Positions 24,986 to 50,241 of a stretch of DNA of 64,000 bases are shown here, piece after piece. The translations under genes were made by a program, and so were the position numbers. Source of the stretch: Amyelois transitella (Eukaryota; Arthropoda; Insecta; Lepidoptera; Pyralidae). The stretch covers positions 6,448,001 through 6,512,000 of the forward strand of contig NC_083513.1 in assembly GCF_032362555.1 (NCBI RefSeq). Direction: 5' to 3'. The notes beneath the pieces are model-generated. The model did no database searches. It was not told where the DNA came from and saw only the letters and a program-made list of their open reading frames with translations. How positions within the stretch are numbered: position 1 is the first letter of the stretch; each line of letters begins with the position of its first letter.

Positions 24986-27900
24986 ATGGATGTAGAGGCA
25001 TTACTATCTAATTGCAATTTTTCAATGTTAGAAGGTAAAGTAGACTCCCGAATTTTGAAGTCCGTAAAATGTATGGGTTTCGTCAAGCCAACGAGAATTC
25101 AAGCTGAAGTTTTACCACACCTTATGCTGGGTAAAGACGTTATAGGCGCAGCTAAAACTGGAAGTGGAAAAACACTAGCGTTTCTTATTCCCGTTGTTGA
25201 CAAATTATTAAAATTAGGATTCACTAAGAAACTTGGTAAGTTTGCACTTTGCAAATGAAACTAATTCATCATCTATTTATTTTCTTTTGCTACTGCATGA
25301 TTTTTGCTTTCATACTATTTACTGATTCCTTCTTTCCCTTATAAATATGATCAATGTTATTTCTAGGAACTGGGTGCATAATACTTTCACCGACAAGGGA
25401 ATTAGCCTTACAGACTTATACTGTGTTGAAGAAATTATTAACCGAAATTGATTTGTCACATTGTCTTATAGTAGGTGGAGAGAAAAAGGTTAAAGATATA
25501 TTGGCTTTACAGCGAGGTAGGTTTATTTGACAAGACTAATATAAATTTTTGGCAGAAAATAGAGCAATCACAATATATTATACAAAATGTTTTAGACATA
25601 ATTTTTTTTTATTTTGCTACAATAGTGGTCTGGTAATGAAAAAACATAGTATGAGCTAGTTGCTACCCTTTCGGAGCAGATTGTAAAAGTCAATCATGTT
25701 AGGTTTATACATATAATAAGGAAGAGGTGGTAATATACATACATACATACATATGGTCACGTCTATATCCCTTGCAGGGTAGACAGAGCCACCAGTCTTG
25801 AAAAGACTGAATAGCAGCTATTAATGATAGAATTGAGATTCAAATAGTGACAGGTTGCTAGCTCATCGCCTAAAAAAGAATCCCAAGTTTGTAGTTTGTT
25901 TGTAATATTAAATATAAATATTTCTTCATATGTTCCTTATCCAGAAGTGGAACTTCTAAATCATGATCACATTCAGAAAGGGGATCAACTGAGACCAAAT
26001 GTCAGTTTTGTTCAATTCTACAACACAACTGGTAAAATCAATATTATCCACTAGTTTAATAAAGATAATAAATATTTCTTGTAACAATTCAATTTTTGTT
26101 GGAACAATTTTTTTTATTTTTTTTTATATACGGGACAAATTACCCAGATTGAGTTAGCTTCAAAGTAAGTTCGAAACTTGTGTTAGGAGATACTTACTCA
26201 ATGAAACTATATTTTTTTTATAATAAATACTTATATGGATATAAACATCCAAGACCCAGGCCAATCAGAAAAATTTCTTTTCCCTTTTATTCGAACCCGG
26301 GACTCCAGTGTCACAGACAAGCGTACTCCTGCACAGCCGCAGAGGCCGAGAATTTTTGACGAAATTTGATACAAAGAGACAATTATATGCTTGAAATAGT
26401 TAAGTTTAAAAAATAAATCGAATGTTTTAGGATCAAACATTGTAGTGAGCACCCCAGGCCGCCTGCTAGACCACCTTCAAAATACAGAATCATTCAGATG
26501 TTACAATCTTAAATGTCTAGTGGTGGATGAAGCTGATAAATTATTGGAAGCTGGCTTCGAGAAACATATCACAGGAATAATTAGTTTACTACCAAGTAAG
26601 TTGTTGTCTGTTATCTACAAACAATAGTATATAAAGTATAGTGAGTAGTGTATCACCCACACAAAGGTCCCTGCTTAATCTAATGGTAGATTGTTAGATA
26701 ACTAACAATCTATTATTTAATAAAGTTAATATAGTATTATTACTATAAGCATTAAGTCCGCCTATTGTACTTTATAAATTGTCATTGTTAAAATAAAGAA
26801 TAAACAAATAAAAATAAATAATAATATTTGATAGATAGATTGTAAAATATACTTATTAGAATAGTCATGATAGTGGTACAATGTACAATCACAAGCAGAA
26901 AATTGACTTTTAAAAATAGAGGCTCATATTTCTTTGCAGGCGACTGTACAACAGCTTGTCTGCATTGTGATGCATAATTTTCTTATCAGTGGGCTGATGG
27001 TACTGAAGCTAAAACTCTTCCTTGTTGTTTTTGTTTAACCGTTCGTTCTTGTTCTTCGTTGTTGTTTAACCTTCATAAGTGTGTTCAAAATAAAAATAAC
27101 AATCCAGAAATACCCATAATAAGCTCAAATCTTCCACCACGAGTCTGATATTATGTATAACTTAAAATTAAGTAACACCACACACAATATTTGCCTATGC
27201 TGAGAATCAAACACCTCTGCCTAGCGAAGCACAATGCTACAGAGGGCGACCTACAATATTGTTACTTGTTTCAGGTAAAAGACAAACACTATTATTTAGT
27301 GCGACAATTGATAATAAAGTGAAGAGTTTAGTTAAATTGGCGCTTCATGCTAACCCAGTGCTAGTGTCAGTGAATGAAGATAGACAGTCAACTGTTACTG
27401 GGCTACAACAGGGGTGGGTATATACCTTTTGTATAATGTTACCTTATTTATAATGTTTCCAAAATTAGTACATACTAGAAACTTTTATAAGTTTCTCATG
27501 CAAAATCTACTGAAGGAATTTGTGTAAAACTTTATCGTTATAATAAAAAAATAAGAGTAACATATAGGCTACATATACGTAAATGAAGCCGCAGGAGGAT
27601 AATAGTATTTTTATATGTTTAAAATGCCGATCTTTAATAATATTAGAAAGTAAGCAAAAAAAGCTCATGTAAGTGCTTATCCTAGCGGTTCTCGAAATAC
27701 TGAGGGCTTAACATTTTCTTGAAGATTTTCTTTCTTTTTTAATTTTCATTAATTTCATCATTTTTCATTAATCACTTTTGTATTTTTTAAGATATTGCAT
27801 ATGTCCAGTGGAAAAAAGGATACCCTGGTTGTATAAAATGCTCAAGAAGACTAAGAAACTGAAGGTTATGGTATTCTTTTCTTCCTGCAAGTCTGTGGAC

Positions 27901-29486
27901 TTTCATTATGATTTCTTCAAAATTCATTGCAGAGCTGCGGTATTGAGTATACATGTAAGTTCTTTTTTATTAAAACCGCAATTACTGTAGAATTTTTATA
28001 GTTACCTATCTTTACCCTTAACGCTGGATAATGCTAGATAGGATGCCTCAACTTCGTGCATATTAGATTTATCTCATGGAAACCTTTCATTGGATAAAGA
28101 TATGATACAAAAACATCACATCTAACGAAGTCAAACGTAATTTTTTTTTAAATTTCGTGTCTCAAATTATTTTTCACTGGAACACCTTTATTTTTTCGTT
28201 GAACTAAGCGTTATTTAACTTTTGAAAGGGAAAACAAAGTCAGTCCAGAAGAAAAGAAGCCTACCAGAAGTTTGTTGAAGCGGGTAATGGTGCCTTGTTC
28301 TGTACTGATGTCGCCGCCAGAGGACTGGATATACCATCTGTAGACTGGATTGTACAGTACGACCCCCCTACTGATCCTAAGGTAACTGTACAGTATCATT
28401 GAAATATTTAAACGTTTCATACAAATTGACATATTCAAATAAATCTCAGGTAACATTTACATTACCAATTTTAAATGTATTAATCGGCGTTCTTTTGGCG
28501 TTAATCTCAACGACATCTTAACCTCTATACTATAGGGTACGCCTTTAGACCATGAAATTTGATTGATTGAGTCAGATCTTTACATAAAACCTCTCCTGTC
28601 TGCCCCCGCAACCTTCATAGGGCATCCTTTCCCATATTGTATTAGGTAGGTACAAGCTGCACTAAATGAATATGCCTATCCTTAGCGAAGAGAGGGAGTG
28701 GCCCTATTCTTTATTACCGAGAACCACACGGCCATTAGAAAGCCATTTTTTTTTTAATTTATAGTACAATACACAGAACATAATGCGAGTGTTTTGTTGT
28801 GGTGGCTGTGTTAGGATAAATAGACTGCTTAATATGTTAACAGATTTTTCGCAGTCCTTGTAAAATATGTTTTTATTATTGTTTTATCAGGAATATATCC
28901 ATAGAGTTGGGCGGACAGCAAGAGGTTTGAATCAAAAAGGTAGCGCCGTAATACTTTTAAGGCCAGAGGAAGAAGAGTTTATAAAATATTTGAGGAAAGA
29001 AAAAGTATATTTGGATAAATATAGTTTTGGAGATCCACCTAATGAAGTTCAAGATATGGTAAGATTACCTTTGATATAAAATAAGTTGAATAATACGTGA
29101 CATTGAGTCGAGTCACGTGGTTAAGTAAAACGTATTATATGTAGAACCGCGCACATACTACTTATTAAACATTATTTGAAGTGCTCGTGCTGCGTTGATT
29201 TTCATCGATTTCACCTAACAACCTTGGCAAATTATAACTGATTTTTTTTATTGCGCTTGTTAATTATTGTAATCGCTTACTTTTACAGTTAGAAGATTTG
29301 GTAACAAAGAACGGTGTGGTAAAAACCTTAGCGAGAAAGGCTTATCTATCATTTCTAAGGTGTTATAAAACTCATCCTATGAAGAAAATCTTTAATATCC
29401 AAACAATGGATTTGAAATTAGCGGCGAAGGCCTTTGGCTTCCTGGAACAGCCTGATGTGGATTTTTGTATCCTTTTCATTTTCTAG
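24986..29486 (+). CDS. Divergent DDX18/Has1-type DEAD-box RNA helicase, 8 exons
   Basis: By family, a nucleolar ATP-dependent RNA helicase of 60S ribosome assembly. Exons: 24986-25235, 25367-25516, 26431-26595, 27275-27413, 27792-27954, 28229-28381, 28891-29058, 29289-29486; all phases match and the sum is 1386 nt (461 aa). Motifs: Q-motif region (GFVKPTRIQ), motif [10 protein letters not shown] (55-63), [19 protein letters not shown] (166-169), [14 protein letters not shown] and HRVGRTARG. Exon boundaries and phases equal those of the minus-strand DDX18 gene at 36267-30932, so it is a DNA-level paralogue. It lacks the acidic/basic N-terminal exons and, because of TAG at 29484-29486, the basic C-terminal tail. 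It is convergent with the canonical gene. Every catalytic motif is intact, so I treat it as a probable functional gene rather than a pseudogene. Confidence 0.85.
25731..25895 (+). mobile_element. GGTAGACAGAGCC-type interspersed repeat in helicase intron 2
   Basis: Begins in a run of CATA units, then GGTCACGTCTATATCCCTTG, GGTAGACAGAGCCACCAGTC, the small hairpin AGTCTTGAAAAGACT, and GAGATTCAAATAGTGACAGG. The same order is seen at 39823 and 46226, and reversed at 50844-51045. No coding content. Confidence 0.75.
26680..26830 (+). mobile_element. LINE 3'-end-like fragment in helicase intron 3
   Basis: Contains GCATTAAGTCCGCCTATTGT followed by an AAAGAATAAACAAATA-type A-rich end. A parallel segment occurs at 57438-57552. 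This looks like the 3' UTR of a non-LTR retrotransposon whose coding part is absent. Confidence 0.5.
28600..28737 (+). mobile_element. Fragment of the CCACACGG-ending interspersed repeat
   Basis: Contains TATGCCTATCCTTAGCGAAG, GGAGTGGCCCTATTCTTTA and ends GAGAACCACACGGCC, matching the right part of the repeat family seen in full at 46226-46500 and 50844-51045. Confidence 0.55.
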
Positions 29487-29558
29487 GTATATTTTAGAAT
29501 TAAGATTTCCCGACGTCCCATACGAATTTCAAGAAAAAAAGTAAATTTCATTTCTTGA

Positions 29559-30931
29559 GACAACTTCTATGCCTTAAAGTAACAAACGTAAGAGATTTTC
29601 CTGTAAATAAGGACGGAACGAAACGAATAAATCAACTCAAATGCCAGTATCTGAGTTGCATTTGTGTAAATAGATTTTCCGATTTCCGATTTTTTGGAAC
29701 GGGCGTTTTCTGGCACGAGGTTTTCCATTCCGTGCACTCTAGACTAGACCACATAAAGAACCTACATGCCAAATTTCAAATCTCTAGACCCAGCAGTATG
29801 TCAGTCTAGTGTACTCTTTTATATAATTTTTAGATATTTGTGTTTTGCTCTCGGGTTCGATAAAAAAAATACAAGTCGTTACAAATACGCATTTATATCT
29901 TATTATCTATATATTATACAAAATTATTTCCAACTACGATTCATTACAGTAAAATCTCAAAAATCGTGATTCCAGTTTTCAAGAAAAAGAAAATCTTTAC
30001 CTAAAATTCGGAAAATGTGAAAGACGACATCGAAAACAACATAATTATATCGAATTTCGTTATTATTTCTAAGGGGTACTACTTTCCTCATTATTGTCAA
30101 TTTGTAATTTCCCACGTGAAGTTCCCTAGTTATGAGGAAAATATAAGCCATTTGTGATAATTATTATATTTTATCTGTATACATATATACATATATGTAC
30201 CTATGTGTTTTGTCTGTACACAAACTTGCAATAAATTTGTACATAAGTTTTCTATAGCTGTTTTATTTTTTCGTCTATTTTCTTGTCCCCATTTCACTGC
30301 TGTTAAAATTATTTCTTTATATTATTTACATTCATTCAAATATCTACGAATAAACAATCAAATTCAAATTTATCAAACTATTTTTAAATACGAGTATAAG
30401 GTCCGTGGCACAGATTAAACACAATTAAAATAAATCTTCAAACATTATCCTCCTCTTTTTTAAAAGTCGCGTAAATAAACCCTTTGTATTTGGAATGGAA
30501 AGTTACAACAGAAAATAAATCAAATAGCATAATATGACGAAATGTAATTAGATAACGACACTGTTGTAGTTCATAATTTATCTGTTAATAGTCGTTTTGA
30601 TATGAAATACACAAAAGATTTACATATTACCTTTAGGAACACAAAATGTATATCTGATATATATGTTTAAGATGGATTTACTGTCTTCTTCTAGAAATTG
30701 TTATCGAACGAATATAATGTTTGGGTTTGAGGCGATTGCATTTTCGCGCATCGCGCCGCTGCCTCCCGTGTCTCGCTTCTATGTCGCCGGACACCTCTTT
30801 AAAACTCCTATGTAAAGAGATGAGGATGTAACTGGAATCAACGCCAGGTGTAAAAAAGGCTTTCCTTACCAATTAAAAAAACCACAAAATTATAAAATAC
30901 AGTTTTATTATACCAATATAATTATTATCGC
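29559..30931. other. Spacer between convergent helicase genes
   Basis: No gene recognised. A repeat-like phrase ACCTACATGCCAAATTTCAA at 29760-29780 suggests an old mobile element. The AATAAA for the canonical minus-strand gene (TTTATT on the plus strand) is at 30904-30909. Confidence 0.45.
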
Positions 30932-33900
30932 TTAACTAACGGACCGTTTATTACCACCTTTTTGTCTGTATATCTTAGTTTTCTGCGCCTTATTCCTCTG
31001 GCTTGCTGGTGCATTTAGTGAATTAAAATAGCCGTAACCACCGCCTCCTTTCCTTTTTGAAGGCGGGCCTTTATTTGTTATCTTTAATTCTACAGCTGGA
31101 GGTACAATGAAACCAAATGATTTTGATACTTTAGCCAAATCAATCTTATCGATGTCGAATATAGTTTTCAAATGGTGAGAATCGTAAGCCCTGAGATAGC
31201 TCTTGAATGCTTCCTTGGCAGATTGATTCAGGAAATAGTTTTTTGATATTAATTTTTCCAACTGAAACGAAAGGTGTTTGATGTTACAAGGGATAATGTA
31301 ATGAATTAAGTTAGCTCGTGGATCCGACCAACAAAAACATTAATGCAGACCAAATTATATAAATATTTGCGTATTGCGTATGTCCCAGCTGGGAATGGAA
31401 TCCAGGCCTCTCCTAGTAGCGGGTGTAAAATGCAGCGCCAAGGAGTTATTGATGTTAGTTTGAAGTCATTAAGGCTGTCTATTTCTGTCTATATAATAAC
31501 TTCAAACTAACATCAATAACTCAGTTAAATTCCGAGATAAAATCAGTAAGGCAGCCACAAGAAAAAGAAAATTTGTAAACATCCCATTTTGACCTAGGGT
31601 ATAAATGTAAACACGAAAAATATATAAGGGTTTCCAACCAACCTGCAACTGAATATTAGCAACTTTGTTCCAAGAGAATTCGTATTCATTGAGGGTGACC
31701 TTCGACTGCTTCAGATACCTAAGGAATCCCAATTCCTCGGGTCGCAAGAACAACAACGCGTGCCCGTTGGTACAGAGACCCCTCGCTGTTCTGCCCACAC
31801 GGTGAATATATTCCTGAAAGAAAAATAAAAGACGGTTATTTTTAATTCGGCTAAAATTCCGGGTTAATGGTGTAATTTGTCCCGTATATACTCGCGGTTA
31901 AATCCCCGCGTTTGTTTACCGAGGAATTCAATCTCGTTCAGCAACATATCATGCATTACCTTAGGATCATCAGGTGGGTCATATTGAACGATCCAATCCA
32001 CAGCTGGAATGTCTAGGCCTCTAGCCGCTACGTCCGTACATAAAAGTATACCGGACTCCGCATTGCAGAACTGGAAGAAAGTTGTGGTACGCTTCGTTTG
32101 CTGTTGTTTGCCCTAAAAAAAAATTGAGATTGATATTATTTACTTACAATCATTACCTGCATTACTAATCTTACAAATAAACAATTTTATAAATCCCCAA
32201 TTTGTATGTGTATAGTATTGTACTACTTAAGCCCTTCCATTTAGTATATTCTGTCAAGATATATGTAATCAGACAGTTATCGTGGTGGCCATCTTCAACC
32301 GATTTTCATAATACGTAGCTACAAACACTTCTGCCTGACTATGGGCCTTCACCTTCGAAACAAACCAAACGTACTTCAAACTATTTGAGCATCAAAAGGG
32401 ACATAAGTAGCGTTACAAAATATACTTACATGTATAGACATCACAGGCAGGTCGATGTAGTTAAACAATTCGTGATGGTATTTTACGGACATACAAGTTG
32501 AGAGGAAAACCATAACTTTCTTCTTCCTGTTCTTCTTTAGAAACGTGAATAAGACCATCATACGCATCTCTGAAGGGCACACAATGAACCTGGGAAACGA
32601 AATAAGATAATCAATATCTAAGTTAAAAAAAAATACTTCTTTTTACTTGAACATTTCTATGGCTATAATCCATAGGAGCCAAAGTGGCCATACTATTTTT
32701 ACAGCAATGTAGATATTCTATGTCCTTGAAAGCGACACTGTTATGTGAAAGATAAAGTGAATGTGTTTGTGAAAGACAGAGGGAAATTTACTTAGAGAAG
32801 AATAAGTATCACAAAGCCTGTCCTGCAAAGTCAATCAAAACTTACCCTTGTTCCAAAGAGTCCACGGTTGCTTGTTCTTTCTGGTCATCAACGCCTACAT
32901 AAATTGGTTCTTGCTTTACCGCAAAGGCTGTCAGTGCTTCAGTCTTCTTGGTCTGAGTGGCACTGAACAGCATAGTTTGACGGCGTTCTGTTGGAATTTT
33001 AAATTGTAGCTTCAGAGCTTAGCTTTAGAGATAAATAACTTACCTATGTTACTTATTATAGGGACCAAATTGCAGTTTAGAAAAGTAATGAAGAGATTGA
33101 TGATGATGAGAGAAATAAAAATGGACAGTTGTGGCTAGTGAAAGATTCTGCATAATTTACTCGTTTTATATAACAAGTTAACTATGCTGTGAAAGAACTT
33201 AAAAGTAATGGTGTAATGTTTAAGATAATATTAATTGGGACAAACTCGAAAATGACCACAATCTCTTTCTATGAATCTAAGTAACAATGCCATAGCAATA
33301 TCAAGAGTTCTAAAGAGAGTCAGGTAGGCGCCTGAAAGAATAAAAAAATGCAGTTTGTATGTGTGTTCAAATCAAACTTCAGCAATGTATCAATGACTAC
33401 CATTCCCGTGGGATTGTTTATGAAGGACAATGTGCCGAGTTTAACCACGGGAAAAGCTATTTCATTTAAATATAAATACTTACTGTCTTTGTTCCTAAGA
33501 CAGTGTAGTGAACACTTATGGGATTTCCGATATTCCCACGAAAGCGGAAAAACGGGTCACCGTACATACAAATTTGCGGGTAAAAGTACTGACTTCTTGT
33601 CAGTACTTAAGTACCTTAAACCTTTCATCCAGGAAAAATACTGTATTTGCAGGATTTGGGCTATAAAACAATGTGTGTGATCGAAGATGCGGGCAACAGG
33701 TTGTTAACTATAAAGAAGTGACACAAAAGAGAGAAGTAAAAGGAAGTTATGAAGATAAACTTACTGGGCAATAGTCTGATGATCTGCTTGACTTCCTCTT
33801 CAAAACCAATCTCAAGTAATCTGTCTGCCTCATCAATGACGAGACACTGAAGATTTTTGTACAAGAAGTCTGGTGTATTTTGCAAGTGATCAAGCAATCG

Positions 33901-36267: not shown

Positions 36268-36429
36268 TTAGGAAATTGAGATAGTAAAATAAAAGTTAAA
36301 ATTAAAAACGTGGGTCAACAATAAAGTTCAATAAACACGACGACAGTTACGACTACGACAGGAGTACCTACAGTACAGGACAGATCCAGACAGTGTTGCC
36401 AACCCCAAAAAGCTAAAAAGCAACTCGCC

Positions 36430-37079
36430 TAGGGATGATCGATATTCATCGATGTTGAATAAATATCGATGTTAGCTGGAAAACATCGATGTCATGATTT
36501 CAATATTATCGACACATCGATGTTTTAGGAATAAATATATTGAAAAAAAAATTATAAATTTGTTATAAAAAAGAATAATAATTTGTCTGGTCAACGTGAC
36601 ACAAATATGCCTTTGGAATCACAATTTTATTTAAAAAGTCCGGTAGCTGAGTTAAAAAAAGACCCATTACTCCTATGGAAATGCTAAGATCCACCTATCC
36701 AAATTAGAAGAAAATAGCTCTTAAGTATATTTTGTATTGTACAGCTACATCCACAGCTTCAGAAAGGCTTATTTCTAAAGCTGGCCAACTCCTATACCAG
36801 CAACGTAACCGATTGAAGGAAAATATCTGTCAAAGTAATTTTTTTTTTACAAAGTGTGAACAAAAGATACTGAGATTTTTAATATTTTTGTTTAACGTTA
36901 TTACAATTATAATAAATAATTTTCATAAATATAATAGACAGCTTTATTTTATTTTTAAAAAACATAAATATTTTACAGATTTCGATGTTTTTGAATCGAT
37001 GTTTATCGCACATCGATACTTTTGATTCGATGTTAACATCGATGTCAACATCAATGTTTTTTAATATCGATCATCCCTA
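36430..37079 (+). mobile_element. Internally deleted hAT-type DNA transposon
   Basis: The ends are a perfect 17-bp inverted repeat, TAGGGATGATCGATATT at 36430-36446 and its complement at 37063-37079. Inside each end are many copies of CATCGATGTT-like subterminal motifs. The internal frame near 36741-36880 reads ATSTASERLISKAGQLLYQQ then RNRLK, the conserved C-terminal dimerisation segment of hAT transposases. The catalytic part is missing. I found no clear 8-bp target duplication, so one flank may have changed. Confidence 0.82.
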
Positions 37080-37986: not shown

Positions 37987-38595
37987 TAGGAATGTGAAAA
38001 AATAATCAATTATGGAAATAAACGATTAAAAATTTTTTAAAAGTAAAAATTGATTTTCATACCTGATTTTTTTTAAAATTAGTAATCGATTTTTTTTATA
38101 ATCATGCAATAAATGCACTCCGACATTACGTTTGGTCTTCTGGCTTGGAGCCCGGAACGCAAATTGCAAAGAATACAATCATAGCTCCATAATATTACAT
38201 AAACACCAACTGTGCATGCTTCCTGTGTTTTTAAAACAGTTTAGATGATTCATTTAATCAACCATTCACTAGATGGATAGTCGATGAACTGTATTTTACC
38301 GACATTTAGTTGGTATGTTATTAATTATTCGTGGTTGAAACTTCATTTTTCAAGCTTGATTGTTTTAAAACTTTAATTTTTGTTGATTATATAAGAAAGT
38401 ACTGTTTCTGTTGTTTATTTTACATTAATTATATATTTTTTATGACATTAATTGAAAAATTAGGAAAAAAGTTATCAATATAATAATATCGATTATTTTC
38501 TTAAGAAAATCGATTTTTTATTAATCGAGTTTCATACATTAGAAATAAACCGATTAAATAAACATTGATTTTTTATCAGCAATGTCTCATCCCTA
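37987..38595. mobile_element. Non-autonomous hAT-type element with 8-bp target duplication
   Basis: The element begins TAGGAATGTGAAAAAATAAT and ends TGTCTCATCCCTA; the ends are imperfect inverted copies (TAGG-ATG). It is flanked on both sides by the same 8 bases, ATTTGAAT (37979-37986 and 38596-38603). An 8-bp duplication and TAGGG-type ends are the hAT signature. The 609-bp interior is AT-rich with repeated ATCGATT-like motifs and no coding capacity. Confidence 0.85.
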
Positions 38596-38997
38596 ATTTG
38601 AATGTAGGGCGCAGTGGGTGTTACCATAAAGAAACTAGGTTTCCTTTTTTCAAAACTTCAATGAACCCTAGAGCGCCACAATCTTTGTCGATACTTGACA
38701 TGTCTTTTTAAAATGACATTTTAAATTTCGCAGTATTTTCAAATACATAATTATTTGCCAGCGCGTTGTTTTCTTAACAAGTGGTATTTTAGAAATTATC
38801 GTGTGTTGAATAAATATATGTGTATCTATCATTTTGTTCATGTTATTTTGGCAATAATTTTGGGAACATTTAGGGGTTTCAGACAAAATACATACACCAG
38901 TATAGTGTGCAGATGGATGGATACTTAACAATAATAAAACAACTACAAAATTATAAATTAGTTTTATTAAAAAACCTATCTAATTATTACTTGTCAC

Positions 38998-41900
38998 TTA
39001 ATTATTAAAGCGTTTATGACCACCTTTTTGTCTGTATATCTTAGTTTTCTGCTCCTTATTGCTCTGGCTTGCTTTGGCTTTAACTGCTTGGAGGCGGGCC
39101 GTCTTTGTTATGTTTAATTTTACAGCGGGAGGGAAAGCAAAACCAAATGATTTTGCTACTTTAGCCAAATCAATCTTATTGATGTCAAATATATTCTTCA
39201 ATTTGTGAGAATCGTAAGCCCTGAGATAGCTCCTGTATGCATCCTTGGCACATTGTTTCAGGTAATAGTTTCTTGATAATAACTTTTCCAACTGAAAAAA
39301 AAAGAGTTTGATGGTTATTTGTGATTTTAATGTAATGGCATTAAATTTGCTCATGGGTCTGACAAACAAAAACTAATGCAGACCAAATCATATAAATATT
39401 TGTTTATGCCCTTGGGAATCAAAACCAAGACTCTCGTAGTAGCCAGGTGTTAACCGCAGCGCCAAGGAGGTTGACTATTTATAAAACATAGATGTTAAAA
39501 TATGTTAGAGATAAAAAAAAATATTTGTCTTCAAAATATACACAAAAATTTTGAAGACAAATAAAACCCATTTTGACCTAGGGGAGTAATAATATATGTA
39601 TAAGGATTTCCAACCAACCGGCAACTGAATATCAGCCACCTTGTCCTGAGAGTATTCATATTGATTTAGGGTGACCTTCCACTGCTTCAGATACCAAAGG
39701 AATCCCAATTCCTCGCGCCGCAGGAACATCAACGCGTGCCCGTTGGTACCGAGACCCCTCGCTGTTCTGCCCACACGGTGAATGTATTCCTGGAGCAAAA
39801 GTTAATATATATATAAGTTAGTACATACATACATACACAAATATAATCACGTCTGTATCCCTTGTGGGGTAGACAAGACCAACAGTCTTGTAAACAATGA
39901 TAAGTCACATATAGCTGTTTGGCTTAATGACAGAATATAAGTAAGTAAATATAAAATAATAAAAAGTAAATACATATATAAGTTGAAATATGCATAAAGT
40001 AGGTTTCTTCACTGACTAGTTTTGTTTTATTCAAGCCAGTGCCAAAGTAAAGTTTAAGATTAGTGTAATGAGAAACTAACTCAACAACATTTTAGTTAGG
40101 GCCCAAACCAGGCCAATAAAAAAGAAACATTCATCATAACTTGACCAAGGTTATTAATGCTAAACAATGTGAGTCTGTGACAACAATCCAGTAAGTAAAT
40201 TGCACATCTATATACTCATTTAGATAACTAGAATATTATTTATTACCTTAGGATCATCAGGTGGGTCATATTGTATAATCCAATCTACAGCTGGAATGTC
40301 TAGGCCTCTAGCCGCTACGTCCGTACATAAAAGTATACCGGACTCTGCATTGCAGAACTGGAAGAAAGTTGTAGTGCGCTCTGCTTGCTCTTGTTTGCCC
40401 TAAAAAGATTGAGAAATATTATTTAATTACAATTTCCTGCACTAGCAATCTTACAAGCCTTAGTAATTAAATAAATGTAAAATAAAACATTTGCTATCCA
40501 TAATCAAATCAAATCAAATCAAATCAAATCAAATCTATTTATTGTGGAGCACAGGTAAAAAGATAATATAATTATATAGAGTACCACTGAGTCCTGTCTT
40601 TACAGACGTACAATAATTAATTACATACATTTATATAAAATAAAGTCAACATAAAAATTTAAATTAAATTGAAAATGTCAGTACACGCATCAAAAATAAG
40701 AATTATATAAATTAAATCGAATTATTATGTCAAATTGTCTTGTAGAAAATCTTTAACACTGTAATAACATCTTTCTATTAAAAGCTGTTTAATTGTCTTT
40801 TTAAATGTCACTAAATCTTCGGTCTTATAACTATCTGGCAATTTATTAAAAATCTTAGGAGCCATCCCGATGACATTATTACTGATCAAAGATTTTTGAT
40901 GTCCTCCAATAACCAACTTTTGCTGGTATTGAGGTCTCACACGATCTGGCCTCATTCTTATGTCCGCTATTTTTGTAAACAAGTGGGGATTAGATTTTAC
41001 AAAAAGACAAACTTCTAATATATAAATACTGGGTAATGTTAACATTTTATGTGCTTTAAACATAGGCACACAGCTGTCTCTAGATTTCAGTCCACACATC
41101 GATCTGATACATCTTTTTTGGGCCTTGAAGACTTTGTTAACTTCTACCGCATTACCCCAAAATATTACACCATAGTTTAAATGAGGGGTGACTAAACCAT
41201 GATAAGCCACCAATGCAGCTTCTAATTTAACTTTTTTAGATATCCTAAATAACGCATAAGCCGATTTGTTTAGTTTTTTACATACTTCTTCGATATGAGA
41301 AGACCATGATAATTGACTGTCAACAGTAAGGCCAAGGAACTTTGTCGTTTGAACTTCGTCAATATTTTGACTATTATATTGTATGTTAAGATTAGGTGGT
41401 ATTTTTCTATTATAAAATTGCATAACTTTAGTTTTCATTAAATTAATTTTTAAATTATTAGTTTCTAACCATTGAATTATATCATTTATTGTATTATTTA
41501 TGTCATATTCGTACTCCTTCGGGTCGTCACATTTAATAATTGCAGTGCTATCGTCTGCAAATAGTACCATTTTTTGCTGTACTTTTTGAGGTAAATCATT
41601 AATATAAATGAGAAACAGAAGCGGCCCAAGGACGCTTCCTTGAGGAACGCCGAACTTGTTTATTCTATATCCTGACAGATGATTGATTTCTTGCTTTTTT
41701 TTGGGACAAATACTGGTTATTTCCACGCATTGGCTTCTGTTATCTAAGTAAGATTTTATTAAATTTAATACATTTCCTCTGATGCCGTACGTATTTAATT
41801 TGTTCAATAGTCTATTGCGATTAACAAAGTCAAATGCTTGTGTCATATCGGTATACACTACGCATACAGGGTTCCTCTTATCCACATTTTTCATTACAAT

Positions 41901-44900
41901 GTCCAGCATATCATATATCGCCATACTAATTGTCTTATTCTTTCTAAATCCCTTTTGTTCGTCACATAAAATTTTATATTTAGTCAAGTAATTGTAAATG
42001 GAGTCATATAAATATTTTTCAAAAATCTTTGTAAAAATTGTTCCAAGTGCCACTGGCCTAAAATTAGACATAATTTTTTTATCCCCTTTTTTATGTAGTG
42101 GTTTTATAATAGTTGGTTTAAGTTTATCAGGATAAATACCAGCAGAAATGCACATATTGATGAGAAAACATATATGTGGGGCAATATCTTCACAAACAGA
42201 CTTAACCACTTTTGTGGAGATATCATCGTAACCTGTACTATTGGTGTTTTTTAGTGTTCTTACAATTTTTATTACTTCCTCAGTCATAATTGGCATTAAA
42301 AACATAGATTGTGGCTGAAATATTAGATCAACTTTATCATATAATTTATTCGAAGAGTTTTCAATTTTTTCAATAAAGTACGCATTAAAAGCCTCTGCTA
42401 TTGATTTAGGATCTGATATTGAGTTATCATCGTGTTGAACTTCTGATATGTAGTCTTTTTTTTTATATTTATCATTTATTATTTGCCAAGTTGCTTTAGA
42501 TTTATTTTGTGCGTTGTTGATGTAAAATGTATTTTGAGCCTTCTGTGTTAAATTGATTATGGTTTTAAATTTTTTTGAGTAATTTTTTAAATTAATTTTG
42601 TTCTGCCTAGATGGCGCTGTTCTATGTTTCCATAATAAACTTCTTTTTCTTCGACTGCAAATTTTTATTCCTTTTGAAATCCATCTCAATTTCTTCTTAC
42701 TTTTAAATATTTTTATTTTAAGCGGAAAACAGAGATTGTAAATCATTTGAAAATTATCAAAGAAATGATTGAAAGCAGTATTGGGATCATCTGTATTATA
42801 GATACCAGAAAAGGGAAAGTTTTTTATGTGGTTTTCAAAAAGTTTTAAATATTCAATCGACAAATCTCTTTTTTTAGCACGCCATTGACTTAATTTGTTG
42901 ATTTTATCCATCGGTATCACTATGATTTGAGCTGAATGGTCCGACAACGCGAATTCTATTACCTGATTTTTACATTTGAGTTGTAAGTTGTGGGCAAAAT
43001 TATCTAAGCATGTTTGAGAACTCGGTCTAGTTACTTGTCTTATTTGTAATTTGAGATTATAACCCATTAGAAAATATTCAAATTCCTGGGCTAAATTCGT
43101 TTTTTTTAATACGTCAATATTGAAGTCTCCACACATAACAATTCTTTTATTACATTTTTTAAATAATCTTTTAAAAATTAAATCTAACCTATAATAAAAA
43201 GTCTCAAAATCCTTTGAAGTTGAAGGTCTGTATACACATAATACAAATAAATTACATTGAATTAATTCAACCGCACAGCACTCTACTATATCAGGCACAG
43301 ATAGTTCCGCAACATAATTCAACTCATTGAAACTTACATCATTTTTTACTAAAATGCATGTTCCTCCACGTTTAATATTTTTTCTGGAATAGATGGCCGC
43401 AGAACGATAATTTGGAATGTTCAATTCTTCTTCATCACCAGATTTTATGAAATGTTCAGATATACAAATAACATCTACATAAATTTTTTTATCGGCTAAC
43501 TCTTCCAGATGTACTGACAAAAGATCTGACTTATTTATCAAACCCGCAATATTTTGATGTAAAATAGTCAAGTTTAAATTATTGTATTTATTTAGGAAAA
43601 AAATCAGAACTTGAAGCAGGGCTTACTTTATCCATAATATCATATTCGTCACTGTTTAAATTTTCATTATCAATTATATTCAAAATTAATTCCTGTAAGT
43701 CCCTAAATATTTGCTTAATACCATTATTATTAATAGTACCAGATCGTATGGAAAACATGTCATAATCATAGGAAAGATTCAAATTTGAATCAAGCAAATA
43801 TGCGTAATTATGCGTATGAATATCTAGGTATAACAGATTGTTGAAACATTCAAGTCGCCAATTGAAAATCGTGGAGTTATTGTTACATACAAATGTCGGC
43901 AAACATAGTACAATATTAGTATGTGTTATTAATTGTAATTCTTCTCTTAAGTTTAACACTATATCAAAATAATTATTAGTTTTCTTGAAGTCTTCATCTC
44001 CAATAAAGATGACGCAGCAGTCTTTGTTAGTGTATTCTTTTAATTTATTATTTAAGTCTTCAATCATATTCTTGATTCCACAATTCGGCTTTAAATAATG
44101 ACATATCCTGTAATTTCCAAAAGTACTTTCGGCAATGGACAGCATCTTGTTATTTTTATTAGTACTTATTAAGCATATTTTTGTTACACTCTTTGTATCA
44201 CTTACGTCTGGTTTCTGAAGTTTTTGTTTACTTCTGTTATTGTCTTCTTTTTCTATTTTATCTTCTGCTAAATTTGAAATCGATTTAGAAGATTTATGGT
44301 CATCTTTATCATTAATTAATTGAATACCTGTCTTCTTATTTTCGTTATCTTTATCACTAATTTTTTTAATTTTGTTATCTATCTTTTTATTTTCGTCATC
44401 TTTATCAATAAAATCATGATCTTGTCTATTTGCCAAATTTAATTTTGTAGGACTTTCTTGATAAAGCCTTTGGGAAAGTGTCGATTCTTGAAACCTTTTT
44501 TTACTTTTCTTTTTTACAGAAGCAGGAGATAAAACTTTTTCTGTACAAATTTTTTTATATGTTTCTATTACTTTTTGGCATCTATGTACTTCATTTTTTA
44601 ATTTTATATTTTCCTCGTTCAAATTATCTATTTCATTGTTCGCTGAAAGTAATTTCGATTCAAGATTTTCAATCCGTTCCTGAATTTCAATCTGTGTAAC
44701 ACTGTTGTTAATAGATGTATTAGGTAGGCTCATTATCGTCGAATCTAACAAAGAAGAGTTATCAGAATCATTTAGTGAATTTGATATTTCTGGTCGCCTA
44801 AAAGTAATATTTTCTGAGTCCATTTATGTTTCTAAAGATATTCTTCTATTGGAACGGAACGTTTTGACTGGCAAATATGCAGGAACTCAAATTTAAAAAA

Positions 44901-47900
44901 GTAAATATTATTTGTTATTGTGTCAATGTCAACGTCATGTCATTCAATTGACGTATATATTTATGCCTGCCGGCTGTGACGAAAGTTTTGTGGGATGTGG
45001 TTTAAATGTTAAATTTGCTCTTATTGGCTGAATTTCGTAAAAACATACAAGTTAAATTCAAAATGTTTCAGTTGTTGGATTTTGGCAAAATTAAGATATC
45101 GTTTTGTGGTAAAATAGTTATGTTATTACGTTAGATTCAGTGTCATACCTTTGCCGCAGAAGGTTGAGGTTATAATTCTCAGCCTGTTTTCACTTAAAAC
45201 TTGTAAATAGTGCACTAAATCTTCACTTTTATCAGGAGCAAACAATAACAGGTCTTACTCGCGTGACCACCGGAAGTACCAGCTCATCATGACAGGATGT
45301 ATGTAATCCGACATTTTGTGGTGGTGGCCATCTTAGATTGATATACATCATACATAGCTAACAAACACTTCTGCCTGACTATGGGCCTTCACCTTTGAAA
45401 AAACAAAAATCTAATTTGGTTCGAGATTTTAATCAGGTACCCATATAATTTGGGGGTGTACTTCAAACTATTGGAGCAGGCAAACCGGACATAAACAGTG
45501 GTACAAAATATACTTACATGTATATACATGACAGGCAGGTCGATGTAGTTGAACAATTTGTAATGGTATATCACGGACAAACAAGTTGAGAGGAAAACCA
45601 TAACTTTCTTCGTTGTGTTCCTCTTTAGGAATGTAAATAAGACCAGCATACGCATCTCTGAAGGGCACAAAAGGAACCTGGGAAACGAATATGTATAAAA
45701 TAAAATTTAATGATATCGTTTTTTACCGATTGAAAGAAGGGGTATGTATCTCGCGCGTATCTTGTAAGTTCTATAAAAAAAATTACTACTTACATTTTAC
45801 TTGAACATTGAGTAATTAATTACTCATACAATCTAGTTTATTATGTCAAATAAGCTTTAGTGTTATAGTCATATAAATCGGAATAATATAAAATACTATA
45901 TACTATAAGGCATTCCAAATAATATGGTTATAATCCATATCATCATCCTTTGTCATACTTTTTTTCAAAGCACACTGTTATGTGAAAGGTAAAGTGAACA
46001 TATATGAAAGATAGAGGGAAAGTTACATGAAGAATACATAAGTATCACAAAGCTTAAAGTCAATCAAAACTTACCCTTGTTCCAAAGTTTCCACGGTTGC
46101 TTGTTTTTGGTCCTCAACGCCTACATGCATAAATGAGCAATTTCCAATGGCTTTAATAAGTGCTACAGTCTTCTTAGTCAGAGTGGCGCTGAATAGAATG
46201 TTTTGTCGTTCTTCTGTTGAAACATACGTACATACATATAGTCACATTTTTATTACTTGTGGGGTAGACAGAGCCAACAGTCTTAAAAGACTGATATGCC
46301 ACATTCACTTTTTTGGCTTGATAATAGAATTGAGATTCAAATAGTGACAGGACAGGCAAGCCCATCGACTAAAAGAAGAATACCAAGTTTATATGCCTTT
46401 CCTTAGTCGCTTTTAACGGCATCCATGAGAAAGAGATAAGGAGTGGTTATTTCTTTTCATTATTAAATAAAATTTTATAATTTACGGGAACCACACGGCA
46501 CTGCACGGAAATTAGATTTTAAATAATAAATTTTGACTTTAGAGCAGAGCAGTAAGGAAGTTATGATTACTATGAAGAAATGACAAAAAGAGAGAGAAGA
46601 CACTGTTAAAGTTACAAAATTGAACTTACTGGGCAGTAGTTTGATGATCTGCTTGATTTCCTCTTCATAACCAATCTCTAGCATTCTGTCTGCCTCATCG
46701 ATGATGAGGCCGTAAGCATGTTTGTGCACGAAGCCTGGTGTGTTTTGCATGTGATCAAGCAATCGACCCGGTGTTGCTACTAAAATGTTGACTCCTGAAA
46801 TAAAAATTTTCATTATAACTATAATTTTATTTTTAAAGCGGCGTTTACGCCATTGATATGAATAAAATTAAGTGAAATACCGTGAAGTAACTTCCAAGCT
46901 TCTTTTTCTCTGTTCGCTCCACCCATCACCATCCCATAAGTGTGACGATGATACTTCATCAGTTCCATCAAAACTCCATATGTCTGCATTGCCAATTCCC
47001 TTGTCGGCGTAAGAATAATAACACCAGTTCCTTGAAAGGAAAATCAAAATTGTATTAGAAACTGTTATTAAAATAAAAAAGGTTATATTTTATATTAACA
47101 ATAGGGACGATGACAAGGTTTTAAAACAATATTAATTAGTTAATAACATGATAGAATACACGTAATTATTTTATGTTTTATATTCATTCAATGTACGTCG
47201 GGAAAGTCCATTTAAAAAATAATAACTTTTTTAAGACATCATATCCATAAACGCAATAATTAACGTAGCTGTCATACAAATACATATAAAGTTCATGACG
47301 CGAACAAGATATTCAGATGTGACGTTTGCGTTTTGTAAGAAGCGTTTTGAAGGATTCCAAATAATGTGTTGTTTTTTCGTATATCTCAGGTAGATTATTG
47401 TTTATTGATGCCATTATTTGACCAACGTTTTAGTTATGAAACTAAATTAACACAAAAAAAAAATTGTCATCATGCCTATTACACTGATCCTATATCAATA
47501 ACTAGCTATTGCCCGCGACTTCGTACGCGTGGAAGAGACTGTCGTGGTTATTCTCCGTTGTATGTTGTACAAGGTGTTCTCATAAATGTATTTTTGTACA
47601 AACTTATTTTTGACGTACGTTACCATAAAAACGGTTGTAGTCAGTTTATCTTAAAAGATACATACTGTCGTGGACATTTTTTTAGATTTTTTCAAGAGGA
47701 ATAATTCTTTCATACATATATTTTTGGTATCTTGAACCGTTTTCGCAGCGCACGCAACGGAAGCCAGGTTAAATTATTTTCCCCATTTTCATTATTTCTG
47801 CGCTCCTAATAGTTGCAACGTGATGTTTTATAACCTAAAGCCTTCCTCGATAAATGGTCTATTCGAACCAGTAATTCTTGAGATTAGCGCGTTCAAACAA

Positions 47901-50241
47901 ACAAACTCTTCAGCTTTATAATATTAGTACATATAGATTTTACAAATGATGTCATCATAGTACCATGATGTATAGATTTTTGAGATTATTGAGTACAGCT
48001 GAACATGGCCTTTTGTTCTTTAAAAGAGACTGTTGGCTTGGATTACCTCATTAGTGATAAAGAAGTGATACTTAGTACATATGTAAAAAAAAAATTATGT
48101 GATCAGATTATGAACAAAATGCAATTATAAAAAAATTCGTCATCCCTTCTTATGGATATTTTCCTGATGAGTTTGATGCTTGGAAAATTAACCTATAAAA
48201 TTTTATAAGATTAAATAGAAATAGTTTAATACTATCACCAATCAAAAATACTATGTTAAGACATAAGAACATTAAAAAATAATAATTACCATTTCTACGC
48301 TTTAACTCCAGCTGATAAACCAATTCAATTGCAGGAATTAAAAATGCCAGGGTCTTCCCGGAGCCAGTTTTAGCTATTCCCACGAGATTTCGCCACTTCA
48401 GCAATGGTGGTAACGCTTTGGCTTGGATTTCTGTCATGGTGGTGAAGCCCATGTCTTTAATGGCCCTGAGAGTACGCTCACACACTTTGCCTTCCAAAGA
48501 GGAGAATTTATTTTCTTGTGAAATGCTGAGACTTAAACTGGACCCAGGCACTGGAATAAAAAATAATATTAGTATTTCATTTGGTTTCTTCCTTAACAGT
48601 ATGAATCAATTTTTTATTTACATTTTTAGTTATTACAATCTGTCTGTCTTGGGAAATAAATTTTATAATCTACATCTACACACTAACTTAAAAATAAAAA
48701 ACAAATACAGTTATTAACCATAAAGCTAGTATACATACATTGGCTTTCATCATTTGGCTTTATTTCTATTTTATTGTCCGAGTCTGCTTCTTCAACATTT
48801 TGTGAATCACCATTTTCATTTTCATCTTTTACCTCAGGTTCTTTTTTGACGTCAGCCTTTTGCTTTTTATGTTTTTCTGAAACAATAATTTGTTGATTAT
48901 TGATATATTGATACATTTACATCGCTTGTAGAAATTAAGTGTATCTTAATTATGATGATAAGGGCAAATTATATGCCAATCAAGCTGGCGAATGTCACAT
49001 GATTGTATGGCGAATATTGCGCTAACCACAGTGCAATAGTCAGTCTATCTCACTTATGCAATTTTGTAAAGAGAAAGAGTAGGTATAAAAAATATATCTT
49101 GTTTGGATATTCTAGTGAACATTGAGGTCAAATGAGCTTAAATAAAGAGGTTGATGAATTTAGATGAAATAAATGTTACACCTGGAAAGATGCAAAAGAA
49201 GAAAGTGTAACATAAGACTTATGATTAGGTATGTATTATTGTGCCTGTACTTGACCCATGTGGTTTTGGTTTATATGTATAAACTCAACGTTGTTTCTCT
49301 GCAACTTGTGACTTACATTTTATAATATACTTACTTTTAGTATCTGTTTTTGCACTGTCTTCATTGATTTCATGTGGTCGTTTCTTGGCTTCCTGTGGTT
49401 CCAAATCTGGAAATATAAAGTATATGTAATTAAAACTAAAAATAATAACAATATAAACAAAAAAGGTCTTAATTAACCCCATGTGGTTTTGGTTTATATA
49501 AACTCACTTTGTTTCTCTGCAACTTGTGACTTACATTTTATAATATACTTACTTTTAGTATCTGTTTTTGCACTGTCTTCATTGATTTCATGTGGTCGTT
49601 TCTTGGCTTCCTGTGGTTCCGAATCTGGAAATATAAAGTATATGTAATTAAAACTGTGGTGTGGTGCAATGCTGGTAGTTTTAATTAAGAAAAGGGTAGG
49701 CATAAAAAAAATTATCTTGATTGGATATTCCAGTTAAAATTGCGGTCAAATAAGCTAGAATAAAAAGGTTAATGAATTTAGATAAAATAAAAGTTACAAC
49801 TGGAAAGATGCAAAAGAAGAAAGTGTAACATAAAACTTATGATTAGGTATGTATTATAGTGCCTGTAGAAAAACTTGACTCCATGTGGTTTTGGTTTATA
49901 TAAACACGCTTTGTTTCTCTTCAAGCTGTGACTTACATTTTATAATTTACTTACTTTTATAATCTGTTTTTGCACAGTCTTCATTGATTTCATGTGGTCG
50001 GTTCTTGGCGTTCTGTGGTTCAGATTCTGGAAATTAAATGTATATATAATTGAAACAAAAGAAAATTATAATAGTCCTAATTATTTAACTATAGTGTTAT
50101 AAACGCACATTTGAGTGAAGAGGTTATAGTCATTCAAAACTTACCTGCATTATTTGCATTATATTTTTTGCTCATAAGTTGCAGTTTCCTTTTTTCTCTT
50201 TTTTTAATTTTACGCATTAAAACCTTTTCTGGCATAACCAT
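38998..50241 (-). CDS. Second DDX18/pitchoune-type helicase gene, tandem duplicate
   Basis: A near twin of the gene at 36267-30932. Exons: 50241-50145; exon 2 in three copies 50026-49955, 49624-49553, 49406-49335; 48876-48739, 48550-48290, 47030-46881, 46794-46630, 46213-46075, 45677-45518, 40399-40247, 39789-39619, 39291-38998. With all three exon-2 copies the sum is 1944 nt (647 aa); with one it is 599 aa. Both keep frame. All motifs are present: [50 protein letters not shown]; the tail ends [13 protein letters not shown]. Changes from the twin include [10 protein letters not shown] for [10 protein letters not shown] and a 4-residue longer acidic exon. Intron 8 (40400-45517) holds a full-length LINE. 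The absence of stops and preserved splice sites argue for a functional gene; expression is unknown. Confidence 0.85.
39523..39562. repeat. 15-bp perfect inverted repeat in second DDX18 copy
   Basis: The arms 39523-39537 (ATTTGTCTTCAAAAT) and 39548-39562 are exact complements with a 10-base loop. It lies in the same intron (between exons 10 and 11 of the canonical numbering) as the 24-bp hairpin of the twin gene, but the sequences differ. Confidence 0.8.
39823..39950 (+). mobile_element. GGTAGACAGAGCC-type repeat fragment
   Basis: CATA-repeat start, ATAATCACGTCTGTATCCCT, GGGTAGACAAGACCAACAGT and AGCTGTTTGGCTTAATGACA follow the order seen in the fuller copy at 46226-46500. Truncated on the right. 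Confidence 0.65.
40502..40535. repeat. (AAATC)n pentanucleotide array, LINE 3' terminus
   Basis: About six and a half copies of AATCA on the plus strand, which is (GATTT)n in the LINE's own direction. Such short tandem 3' tails are typical of CR1-group elements. Confidence 0.85.
40725..43571 (-). CDS. LINE ORF2: AP endonuclease and reverse transcriptase
   Basis: 948 aa. The N-terminal AP-like endonuclease shows [27 protein letters not shown] and LSDHS, i.e. all expected catalytic blocks, within residues 1-215. The reverse transcriptase follows, with [57 protein letters not shown] and the FADD active-site box near residue 670. A C-terminal conserved region contains [10 protein letters not shown]. 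The length and motif order are normal for the CR1/jockey superfamily. It carries out nicking of target DNA and reverse transcription of the element's RNA. Confidence 0.93.
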   Translation of the reverse strand: MTILHQNIAGLINKSDLLSVHLEELADKKIYVDVICISEHFIKSGDEEELNIPNYRSAAIYSRKNIKRGGTCILVKNDVSFNELNYVAELSVPDIVECCAVELIQCNLFVLCVYRPSTSKDFETFYYRLDLIFKRLFKKCNKRIVMCGDFNIDVLKKTNLAQEFEYFLMGYNLKLQIRQVTRPSSQTCLDNFAHNLQLKCKNQVIEFALSDHSAQIIVIPMDKINKLSQWRAKKRDLSIEYLKLFENHIKNFPFSGIYNTDDPNTAFNHFFDNFQMIYNLCFPLKIKIFKSKKKLRWISKGIKICSRRKRSLLWKHRTAPSRQNKINLKNYSKKFKTIINLTQKAQNTFYINNAQNKSKATWQIINDKYKKKDYISEVQHDDNSISDPKSIAEAFNAYFIEKIENSSNKLYDKVDLIFQPQSMFLMPIMTEEVIKIVRTLKNTNSTGYDDISTKVVKSVCEDIAPHICFLINMCISAGIYPDKLKPTIIKPLHKKGDKKIMSNFRPVALGTIFTKIFEKYLYDSIYNYLTKYKILCDEQKGFRKNKTISMAIYDMLDIVMKNVDKRNPVCVVYTDMTQAFDFVNRNRLLNKLNTYGIRGNVLNLIKSYLDNRSQCVEITSICPKKKQEINHLSGYRINKFGVPQGSVLGPLLFLIYINDLPQKVQQKMVLFADDSTAIIKCDDPKEYEYDINNTINDIIQWLETNNLKINLMKTKVMQFYNRKIPPNLNIQYNSQNIDEVQTTKFLGLTVDSQLSWSSHIEEVCKKLNKSAYALFRISKKVKLEAALVAYHGLVTPHLNYGVIFWGNAVEVNKVFKAQKRCIRSMCGLKSRDSCVPMFKAHKMLTLPSIYILEVCLFVKSNPHLFTKIADIRMRPDRVRPQYQQKLVIGGHQKSLISNNVIGMAPKIFNKLPDSYKTEDLVTFKKTIKQLLIERCYYSVKDFLQDNLT
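43588..44823 (-). CDS. LINE ORF1 protein with coiled coil
   Basis: 411 aa. Residues ~45-95 form a strong coiled coil ([20 protein letters not shown]). The middle (~125-205) is a low-complexity Lys/Asp/Asn region with repeated DKDDENKK-like units. The C-terminal ~200 residues ([33 protein letters not shown]) resemble the esterase-like fold found in ORF1 of CR1-group LINEs, though I cannot confirm the catalytic residues. ORF1 proteins bind element RNA and form particles. ORF2 starts 16 nt after the stop. Confidence 0.8.
   Translation of the reverse strand: MDSENITFRRPEISNSLNDSDNSSLLDSTIMSLPNTSINNSVTQIEIQERIENLESKLLSANNEIDNLNEENIKLKNEVHRCQKVIETYKKICTEKVLSPASVKKKSKKRFQESTLSQRLYQESPTKLNLANRQDHDFIDKDDENKKIDNKIKKISDKDNENKKTGIQLINDKDDHKSSKSISNLAEDKIEKEDNNRSKQKLQKPDVSDTKSVTKICLISTNKNNKMLSIAESTFGNYRICHYLKPNCGIKNMIEDLNNKLKEYTNKDCCVIFIGDEDFKKTNNYFDIVLNLREELQLITHTNIVLCLPTFVCNNNSTIFNWRLECFNNLLYLDIHTHNYAYLLDSNLNLSYDYDMFSIRSGTINNNGIKQIFRDLQELILNIIDNENLNSDEYDIMDKVSPASSSDFFPK
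46226..46500 (+). mobile_element. Near-complete GGTAGACAGAGCC...CCACACGG interspersed repeat
   Basis: About 275 bp: CATA-rich start, GGGGTAGACAGAGCCAACAG, AGTCTTAAAAGACT hairpin, GAATTGAGATTCAAATAGTG, CGCTTTTAACGGCATCCATG, AAGAGATAAGGAGTGG, end GGGAACCACACGGCA. No ORF. It lies within intron 6 of the second DDX18 copy and is absent from the twin, so it was inserted after duplication. Confidence 0.75.
47500..47942 (+). mobile_element. CTAG...CCCGCGACTTCG-type interspersed repeat
   Basis: Begins TAACTAGCTATTGCCCGCGA, continues CTTCGTACGCGTGGAAGAGA, and ends AGCTTTATAATATTAGTACA. Shares internal blocks (CGCTCCTAATAGTTGCA, TCGATAAATGGTCTATT) with 20138-20390. Located in intron 4 of the second DDX18 copy. 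Confidence 0.7.
48012..48085 (-). mobile_element. Old repeat remnant parallel to 34655-34742
   Basis: GAGACTGTTGGCTTGGATTA ... GATAAAGAAGTGATACTTAG matches the remnant in the twin gene's same intron and in turn the GGTAGACAGAGCC repeat in reverse. Confidence 0.5.
49335..50026 (-). repeat. Tandem triplication of a 72-bp exon with flanks
   Basis: Three copies of the same exon (50026-49955, 49624-49553, 49406-49335) each encode a variant of [16 protein letters not shown] and each keep an AG before and GTAAG after. The two downstream copies are nearly identical; the upstream one is more diverged ([16 protein letters not shown]). Intron phase is 1 on both sides, so any number of copies keeps frame. 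Flanking intron text such as CATGTGGTTTTGGTTTATAT is repeated with each unit. Confidence 0.92.

Follow-up and report, generated by a model that had tools for sequence, protein, structure and literature searches.

A four-gene DDX18/Has1 helicase family in Amyelois transitella: a canonical gene, its fast-changing tandem copy and two old core-only paralogues

DDX18 is, to our knowledge, usually a single-copy gene in animals. The closest described relatives of the genes reported here are Drosophila Pitchoune, human DDX18 and fungal Has1. According to the excerpt cited here, fly Pitchoune is both a nucleolar RNA helicase and a linker between the nucleolus and pericentromeric heterochromatin, built from separable modules: its N-terminal disordered domain is sufficient for nucleolar localization, its PxVxL is an HP1-docking motif, and the protein is required for larval development (PMC12717012). 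An excerpt of a second report gives, for Drosophila Pitchoune, the segment predicted to confer nucleolar localization (PMC10817092). An RNAi reporter screen in Spodoptera Sf21 cells dealt with Sf-DDX18-like, likewise a lepidopteran DDX18/HAS1 helicase, which has a C-terminal DUF4217 and, in the tree presented, has Bombyx as its nearest neighbour and resembles Pitchoune; the excerpt of that report deals with one helicase and does not mention paralogues (PMC4247154).

Here we describe four genes of this kind, P1 to P4, which differ from Pitchoune, human DDX18 and Has1 in lying together on one contig. P2 and P3 share with those proteins the helicase core, the C-terminal extension (CTE), a Pitchoune-like N-terminus and a PxVxL motif, and P3 departs from Pitchoune and DDX18 in having exon 2 tripled and the glycine-rich tail lost. 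P1 and P4 share the helicase core and CTE, and their core introns are as in P2, but they lack the N-terminal domain, their PxVxL is altered (PDVDF, PDVDV), and identity to human DDX18 is 50.7% for P1 and 50.0% for P4. None of the four genes is a new kind of system; each is a variant within a known family. A literature search, mainly of open-access articles, returned no title on insect DDX18 duplication among the matches listed, and annotations of other Lepidoptera may already contain such paralogues.

The gene array and its family identity

The window is the whole 64,000-nucleotide stretch C9:6448001-6512000 (C9 is contig NC_083513.1); positions without a contig name are those of the window, and genome-wide searches covered 327 Mb in 33 contigs. 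A first-pass annotation had described three helicase genes of one family in an array here, and this proved correct to the coordinates; P1, P2 and P3 are complete, stop-free DDX18/Has1 genes whose spliced models are open and have GT/AG splice sites at all internal junctions.

24986-29486, plus strand: P1, core-only DDX18-like helicase of 461 aa in 8 exons, with DEAD, Helicase_C and CTE_SPB4 domains; 3' end provisional
24986-25235, 25367-25516, 26431-26595, 27275-27413, 27792-27954, 28229-28381, 28891-29058, 29289-29486, plus strand: exons of P1, spliced model
36267-30932, minus strand: P2, canonical DDX18/Pitchoune-like helicase of 608 aa in 11 exons
36267-36171, 36052-35981, 35632-35507, 35286-35026, 34378-34229, 33929-33765, 32987-32846, 32589-32430, 32112-31960, 31813-31643, 31261-30932, minus strand: exons of P2, spliced model
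50241-38998, minus strand: P3, young copy of P2 in tandem with it; 647 aa in 13 exons
50241-50145, 50026-49955, 49624-49553, 49406-49335, 48876-48739, 48550-48290, 47030-46881, 46794-46630, 46213-46075, 45677-45518, 40399-40247, 39789-39619, 39291-38998, minus strand: exons of P3, spliced model

The two ends of the array, 24986 and 50241, are the start codon of P1 and that of P3. P1 and P2 are arranged tail to tail and P2 and P3 as a direct tandem, with matching blocks that span 30865-36283 and 38924-50257. Exon lengths from motif I onward are 150/165/139/163/153/168 in P1, 150/165/142/160/153/171 in P2 and 150/165/139/160/153/171 in P3, and the alignment column and phase of all seven P1 introns (7/7) are common to P2 and P3, so that the agreement in exon lengths and intron phases claimed earlier for the three genes holds.

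When compared with solved structures, P2 matched human DDX18 best and fungal Has1 next (837 to 666 bits over five chains, and 354 bits for a DDX18 single-domain chain). P1 scored 490 bits against human DDX18 and 420-426 bits against three fungal Has1 proteins, the five DDX18/Has1 chains covering 490 to 420 bits, as opposed to 240 bits for the best chain from outside DDX18/Has1, a pre-60S RNA helicase chain, and 227 bits for yeast SPB4. Pfam places DEAD, Helicase_C and CTE_SPB4 domains in P1, P2 and P3. Identity to human DDX18 over 444 gap-free columns is 75.5% for P2, 65.5% for P3, 50.7% for P1 and 50.0% for P4. Of 255 positions invariant across human and fungal DDX18/Has1, P2 matches 226, P3 210, P1 168 and P4 162.

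Under the motif names and boundaries that we assume here, helicase motifs I, Ia, GG, Ib, II (DEAD), III and VI are identical in P1-P4 and human DDX18. Motif V is identical in P1, P2, P3 and human DDX18 and carries a V to L change in P4. In motifs Q, IV, IVa and Va the four proteins differ at some positions.

An outgroup is provided by a gene on another contig, which we take to be DDX10/Dbp4-like.

C7:11900614-11901945, minus strand: DDX10-like gene, one open frame over the core; outgroup

This gene was the top single match of P1 and of P2 in the genome among the best candidates scored. Like P1-P4 it is a DEAD-box helicase with CTE_SPB4; it is 35 to 41% identical to them and, unlike them, has no core introns and carries other diagnostic residues. 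A 726-codon open frame covers its core and tail (C7:11899001-11904000, minus strand), without introns there. We defined 110 diagnostic columns, in which four DDX18/Has1 references agree on one residue and the DDX10-like gene has another. The numbers of DDX18-type, DDX10-type and other residues at these columns are 53/11/46 in P1, 55/12/43 in P4, 93/6/11 in P2 and 88/6/16 in P3. Assignment of P1 to another DEAD-box family was rejected on these residues and on the 490 versus 240 bits above. The earlier assignment of all three array genes to DDX18/Has1 is supported by sequence and by the common introns.

Adjoining P1, one long open frame at 21322-22911 (plus strand) encodes a glucosidase II beta subunit (PRKCSH). 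A genome search for genes of the chorion family, which is not known outside Lepidoptera, pointed to 16 places, of which 15 are on contig 28, as expected for a lepidopteran genome. The triosephosphate isomerase gene, Z-linked in Lepidoptera, was located on C31 in a genome search and not on C9, so the contig that carries the DDX18 family is probably an autosome.

A fourth copy and relationships within the family

Genome searches with P2 and with P1, in which the best 72 of 130 and the best 92 of 128 candidates were scored, uncovered a further copy about 290 kb past P3 on the same contig.

C9:6788971-6794745, minus strand: P4, 482 aa in 9 exons, outside the window; matched exons 6789329-6794724

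The exons of P4 cover the core in the same pattern and are 30 to 61% identical exon by exon in these searches. Its introns are the same seven as in P1 plus one after PDVDV, which leads to an extra, basic C-terminal exon. A genome scan with CTE_SPB4, which scored 10 of 10 candidates, rose above the cut-off at seven places, namely P1, P2, P3, P4, the DDX10-like gene on C7, one place on C21 and one on C3. Pieces near the C21 and C3 places match P1 or P2 at 34 to 47%. No sign of a fifth DDX18 copy appeared among the best candidates of the P1 and P2 searches or in the CTE_SPB4 scan; as the searches score best candidates only, four copies is a lower bound. A pattern scan of viral contigs with P1 gave 4 pattern matches and 0 confirmed relatives.

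We inferred a tree with IQ-TREE (LG+I+G4, 457 columns, nine sequences) with the DDX10-like gene as single outgroup. P1 and P4 group together (SH-aLRT/UFBoot 100/98), as do P2 and P3 (97.8/99), and in the best tree P1/P4 fall inside animals beside P2/P3 with weak support (82.3/63 for P1-P4 together, 93.9/79 when human DDX18 is included). Residues private to P1 and P4, absent from the other seven sequences, number 28, as against 2, 2, 2 and 7 for the four cross-pairs. In AU tests (LG+G4, seven trees, two of them the same unrooted tree) placing P1 alone next to P2/P3 was rejected (p 2e-4), as was placing P4 alone there (p 3e-7), and a tree that joins P1/P4 to P2 and leaves P3 outside gave p 0.011. 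The tests did not reject trees in which P1/P4 branch off before animals (p 0.144) or before animals and fungi together (p 0.111); with one outgroup, the latter is the same unrooted tree as P1/P4 beside the DDX10-like gene.

The first-pass annotation had proposed that an older duplication gave the divergent plus-strand gene and that a younger tandem duplication gave the two minus-strand genes. The younger tandem event is upheld by the tree, by a dS of 0.23 and by the direct tandem blocks; reading P2 and P3 as an assembly duplicate was rejected, as they are 78.6% identical with different introns and insertions. The greater age of the other event also stands, but not the single extra gene, because P4 is the sister of P1 and the old event therefore gave a P1/P4 lineage. 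Neither P4 nor the tripled exon 2 of P3 had been part of the first-pass annotation.

Sequence evolution after duplication

Pairwise comparison of P2 and P3 gave dN 0.131, dS 0.232 and omega 0.56 (maximum-likelihood codon model, 593 codons; 2dlnL 12.5 versus omega 1), with dN/dS of 0.125/0.243 by NG86 and 0.129/0.216 by YN00. In the free model for the four genes, synonymous changes could not be assigned between P2 and P3, and equal omega for P2 and P3 (2dlnL 2.05), omega 1 for P2 (2.7) and omega 1 for P3 (0.7) were none of them rejected; the free-ratio omega of 59 for P3 reflects unresolved dS and carries no weight as positive selection. When equal synonymous branch lengths were assumed (449 codons), omega was 0.27 for P2 and 0.79 for P3. 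Equality of the two was then rejected (p 0.0006), as was omega 1 for P2 (p 7e-7), but not omega 1 for P3 (p 0.22).

The asymmetry is also seen at the protein level. Branch lengths in the tree are 0.260 for P3 and 0.054 for P2. The two cores differ at 103 of 456 columns, with 53 differences derived in P3, 10 derived in P2 (binomial p 3e-8 on these 63) and 40 unpolarised. At the 258 columns fixed in four references, 21 are changed in P3 only (G203W and D205N among them), 4 in P2 only and 25 in both. Changes between P2 and P3 nevertheless spare the motifs, with 3 of 82 motif codons changed, all in motif IVa, versus 100 of 374 other core codons (Fisher p 7e-7). Synonymous-only changes fall evenly on the two classes (8/82 versus 42/374; p 0.85). 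In substitution-only neutral simulations starting from the P2 coding sequence, copies acquired on average 6.6 to 13.2 stops, versus none in P3, and none of 1000 copies was stop-free at any of four divergences. The open frame and spared motifs of P3 are at odds with plain neutral decay since the duplication.

P3 also carries structural changes, and all its exon-length differences from P2 are multiples of three.

49335-50026, minus strand: three tandem copies of P3 exon 2, each 72 nt, phase 1-1, with AG and GTAAGT splice sites; P2 has one copy
40728-44823, minus strand: LINE in a P3 intron, between exons 45677-45518 and 40399-40247, on the P3 strand

A single base of 72 separates the exon-2 copies at 49624-49553 and 49406-49335, and since each copy is 72 nt in phase 1-1 with intact splice sites, they could be used in any number in frame. 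The glycine-rich tail of P2 is absent from P3. The LINE looks young: its endonuclease/reverse-transcriptase frame is open over 965 codons and an upstream frame, without a Pfam match, over 411 codons.

P1 and P4 are under purifying selection. Branch omega is 0.070 for P1 (2dlnL 13.7 versus 1) and 0.075 for P4 (2dlnL 10.9), values that are rough and safe in direction alone because deep dS is saturated. Neutral simulations from the P1 coding sequence gave 11.8 and 20.4 stops, with none of 500 copies stop-free at either of two divergences. The first-pass annotation had taken the intact motifs as a sign of specialised paralogues and had set neutral dN/dS against this. A neutral omega does not fit P1 and P4. 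For P3, intact motifs alone do not establish specialisation, as its omega is inseparable from 1, although its frame and motifs are kept.

Targeting modules and what the paralogues may do

The two modules described for Pitchoune can be located in the canonical gene.

36171-36267, minus strand: first exon of P2, similar to the predicted Pitchoune nucleolar-localization segment; P3 likewise
31085-31099, minus strand: PxVxL-type motif PAVEL of P2, residues 554-558, after the CTE

In a comparison of the four proteins, uncorrected for composition, the Pitchoune segment matched the N-termini of P2 (E 3.1e-08) and P3 (E 4.7e-09), and in P1 and P4 it gave chance-level matches alone, in other parts of the protein, the best at E 1.7. 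There are 11 residues before the core in P1 and 9 in P4, versus 113 in P2 and 165 in P3, and a search of the upstream sequence (about 3.0 kb for P1, about 8.3 kb for P4) gave no match to the N-terminus of P2. The PxVxL site reads PAVEL in P2 and PAVKL in P3, which are canonical, PDVDF in P1, which is altered, and PDVDV in P4, whose last residue is not L. It is followed by six residues in P1 and by 29, basic, in P4. The HP1-binding peptide of Pitchoune can be aligned to the end of P4 over 25 residues (52% identity, E 1.7e-06) and to that of P1 over 13 (E 0.002). Because PxVxL is degenerate and the P4 end aligns with the HP1-binding peptide, P4 may still bind HP1. Two chromo-shadow domains were found in the genome. 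A weak donor is present in P1 at the position of the last P4 intron, and a search downstream of P1 for the last exon of P4 yielded no matching exon.

We think it probable that these genes form a family of a housekeeping copy (P2), a young, fast copy (P3) and two old core-only copies (P1 and P4) that have been freed from the nucleolus. P2 would be the nucleolar DDX18/Pitchoune with the conserved role in 60S assembly. P3, its tandem copy, has an open frame and intact catalytic motifs and changes about 5 times faster than P2 at the protein level; it would still be nucleolar, as it has both targeting modules, and would be either specialising or relaxed. P1 and P4, seen as an old sister pair cut down to helicase core and C-terminal extension, are predicted to be active RNA-dependent ATPases that would no longer be stable in the nucleolar granular component or link the nucleolus to heterochromatin. 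Without a nucleolar address they probably act elsewhere or in particular tissues, and they may have other RNAs as substrates. Lepidopteran chromosomes are holocentric. A bolder version of this reading, which we put forward tentatively as a minority view, is that P1/P4 are an ancient, selectively kept core-only subfamily of lepidopteran DDX18, active outside the nucleolus and perhaps in the germline, in which the nucleolar N-terminus was shed and the HP1-docking motif altered, such that a holocentric lineage would have split the helicase job from that of nucleolus-heterochromatin linker.

Other accounts have to be weighed against the four-gene division of roles. P3 might be a relaxed copy on its way to becoming a pseudogene, so that P1, P2 and P4 alone matter. 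The omega inseparable from 1, the 21 of 258 fixed positions changed in P3 only versus 4 in P2 only, the lost glycine-rich tail, the LINE in its intron and the tripled exon 2 all point this way, yet a copy in decay is hard to square with 0 stops or frameshifts where 6.6 to 13.2 stops are expected from substitutions, with exon-length differences that are all multiples of three, with motif codons that are spared (p 7e-7) against an even spread of synonymous-only changes (p 0.85), and with a P2-P3 omega of 0.56 that differs from 1 (2dlnL 12.5), and we consider this account somewhat unlikely. We give less credence again to simple dosage or buffering, in which all four proteins would do the same 60S assembly and would have diverged by drift as constraint weakened, without taking on a new role. 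Catalytic motifs and CTE are kept in all four, P3 keeps the N-terminus and PxVxL, and its omega of about 0.79 under equal synonymous lengths would suit such drift; against this, P1 and P4 are without the nucleolar N-terminal domain, and they agree at few fixed residues (168/255 and 162/255, with 226 in P2 and 210 in P3) yet have low omega, which suggests different constraints and not backup.

It is quite improbable, finally, that P1/P4 are no DDX18 paralogues at all and instead represent a separate, older branch within the DDX18/DDX10 group, one that has disappeared elsewhere. The AU tests allow P1/P4 outside animals (p 0.144) or outside DDX18/Has1 (p 0.111), but the best tree sets them beside P2/P3 within animals, albeit with weak support (82.3/63), their diagnostic residues are DDX18-type at 53/110 and 55/110 columns versus 11 and 12 that are DDX10-like, all 7/7 P1 introns are common to P2 when the DDX10-like core is intronless, and they are physically linked to P2. 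If the favoured division into P2, P3 and core-only P1/P4 is right, retained paralogues in which modules are missing or altered and the catalytic core is kept would be a natural test of module roles. P2 and P3 have evolved asymmetrically since their tandem duplication, and the fly orthologue of this gene is, in the excerpt cited, required for larval development (PMC12717012).

Upstream blocks common to P2 and P3 lie at 37536-37492 (with 50482-50439) and 37466-37438 (with 50409-50377), about 1.0 kb farther from the start codon in P2 than in P3.

36708-37022, plus strand: remnant of a hAT dimerisation domain, between the P2 start codon and the blocks common with P3

The sequence TATCGATA, which we take to be a DRE-type core promoter element, lies upstream of P3 (at 248 bp) and of P4 (at 375 bp) and is absent within 1500 bp of P1 or P2; the shorter ATCGAT[AT] is upstream of all four genes. 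This motif pattern is suggestive at best. Transposase frames lie upstream of P3 at 51890-53077 (minus strand): the frame at 52217-53077 matches Pfam Transposase_1 (mariner-type), and that at 51890-52213 (minus strand) adjoins it and looks like its continuation.
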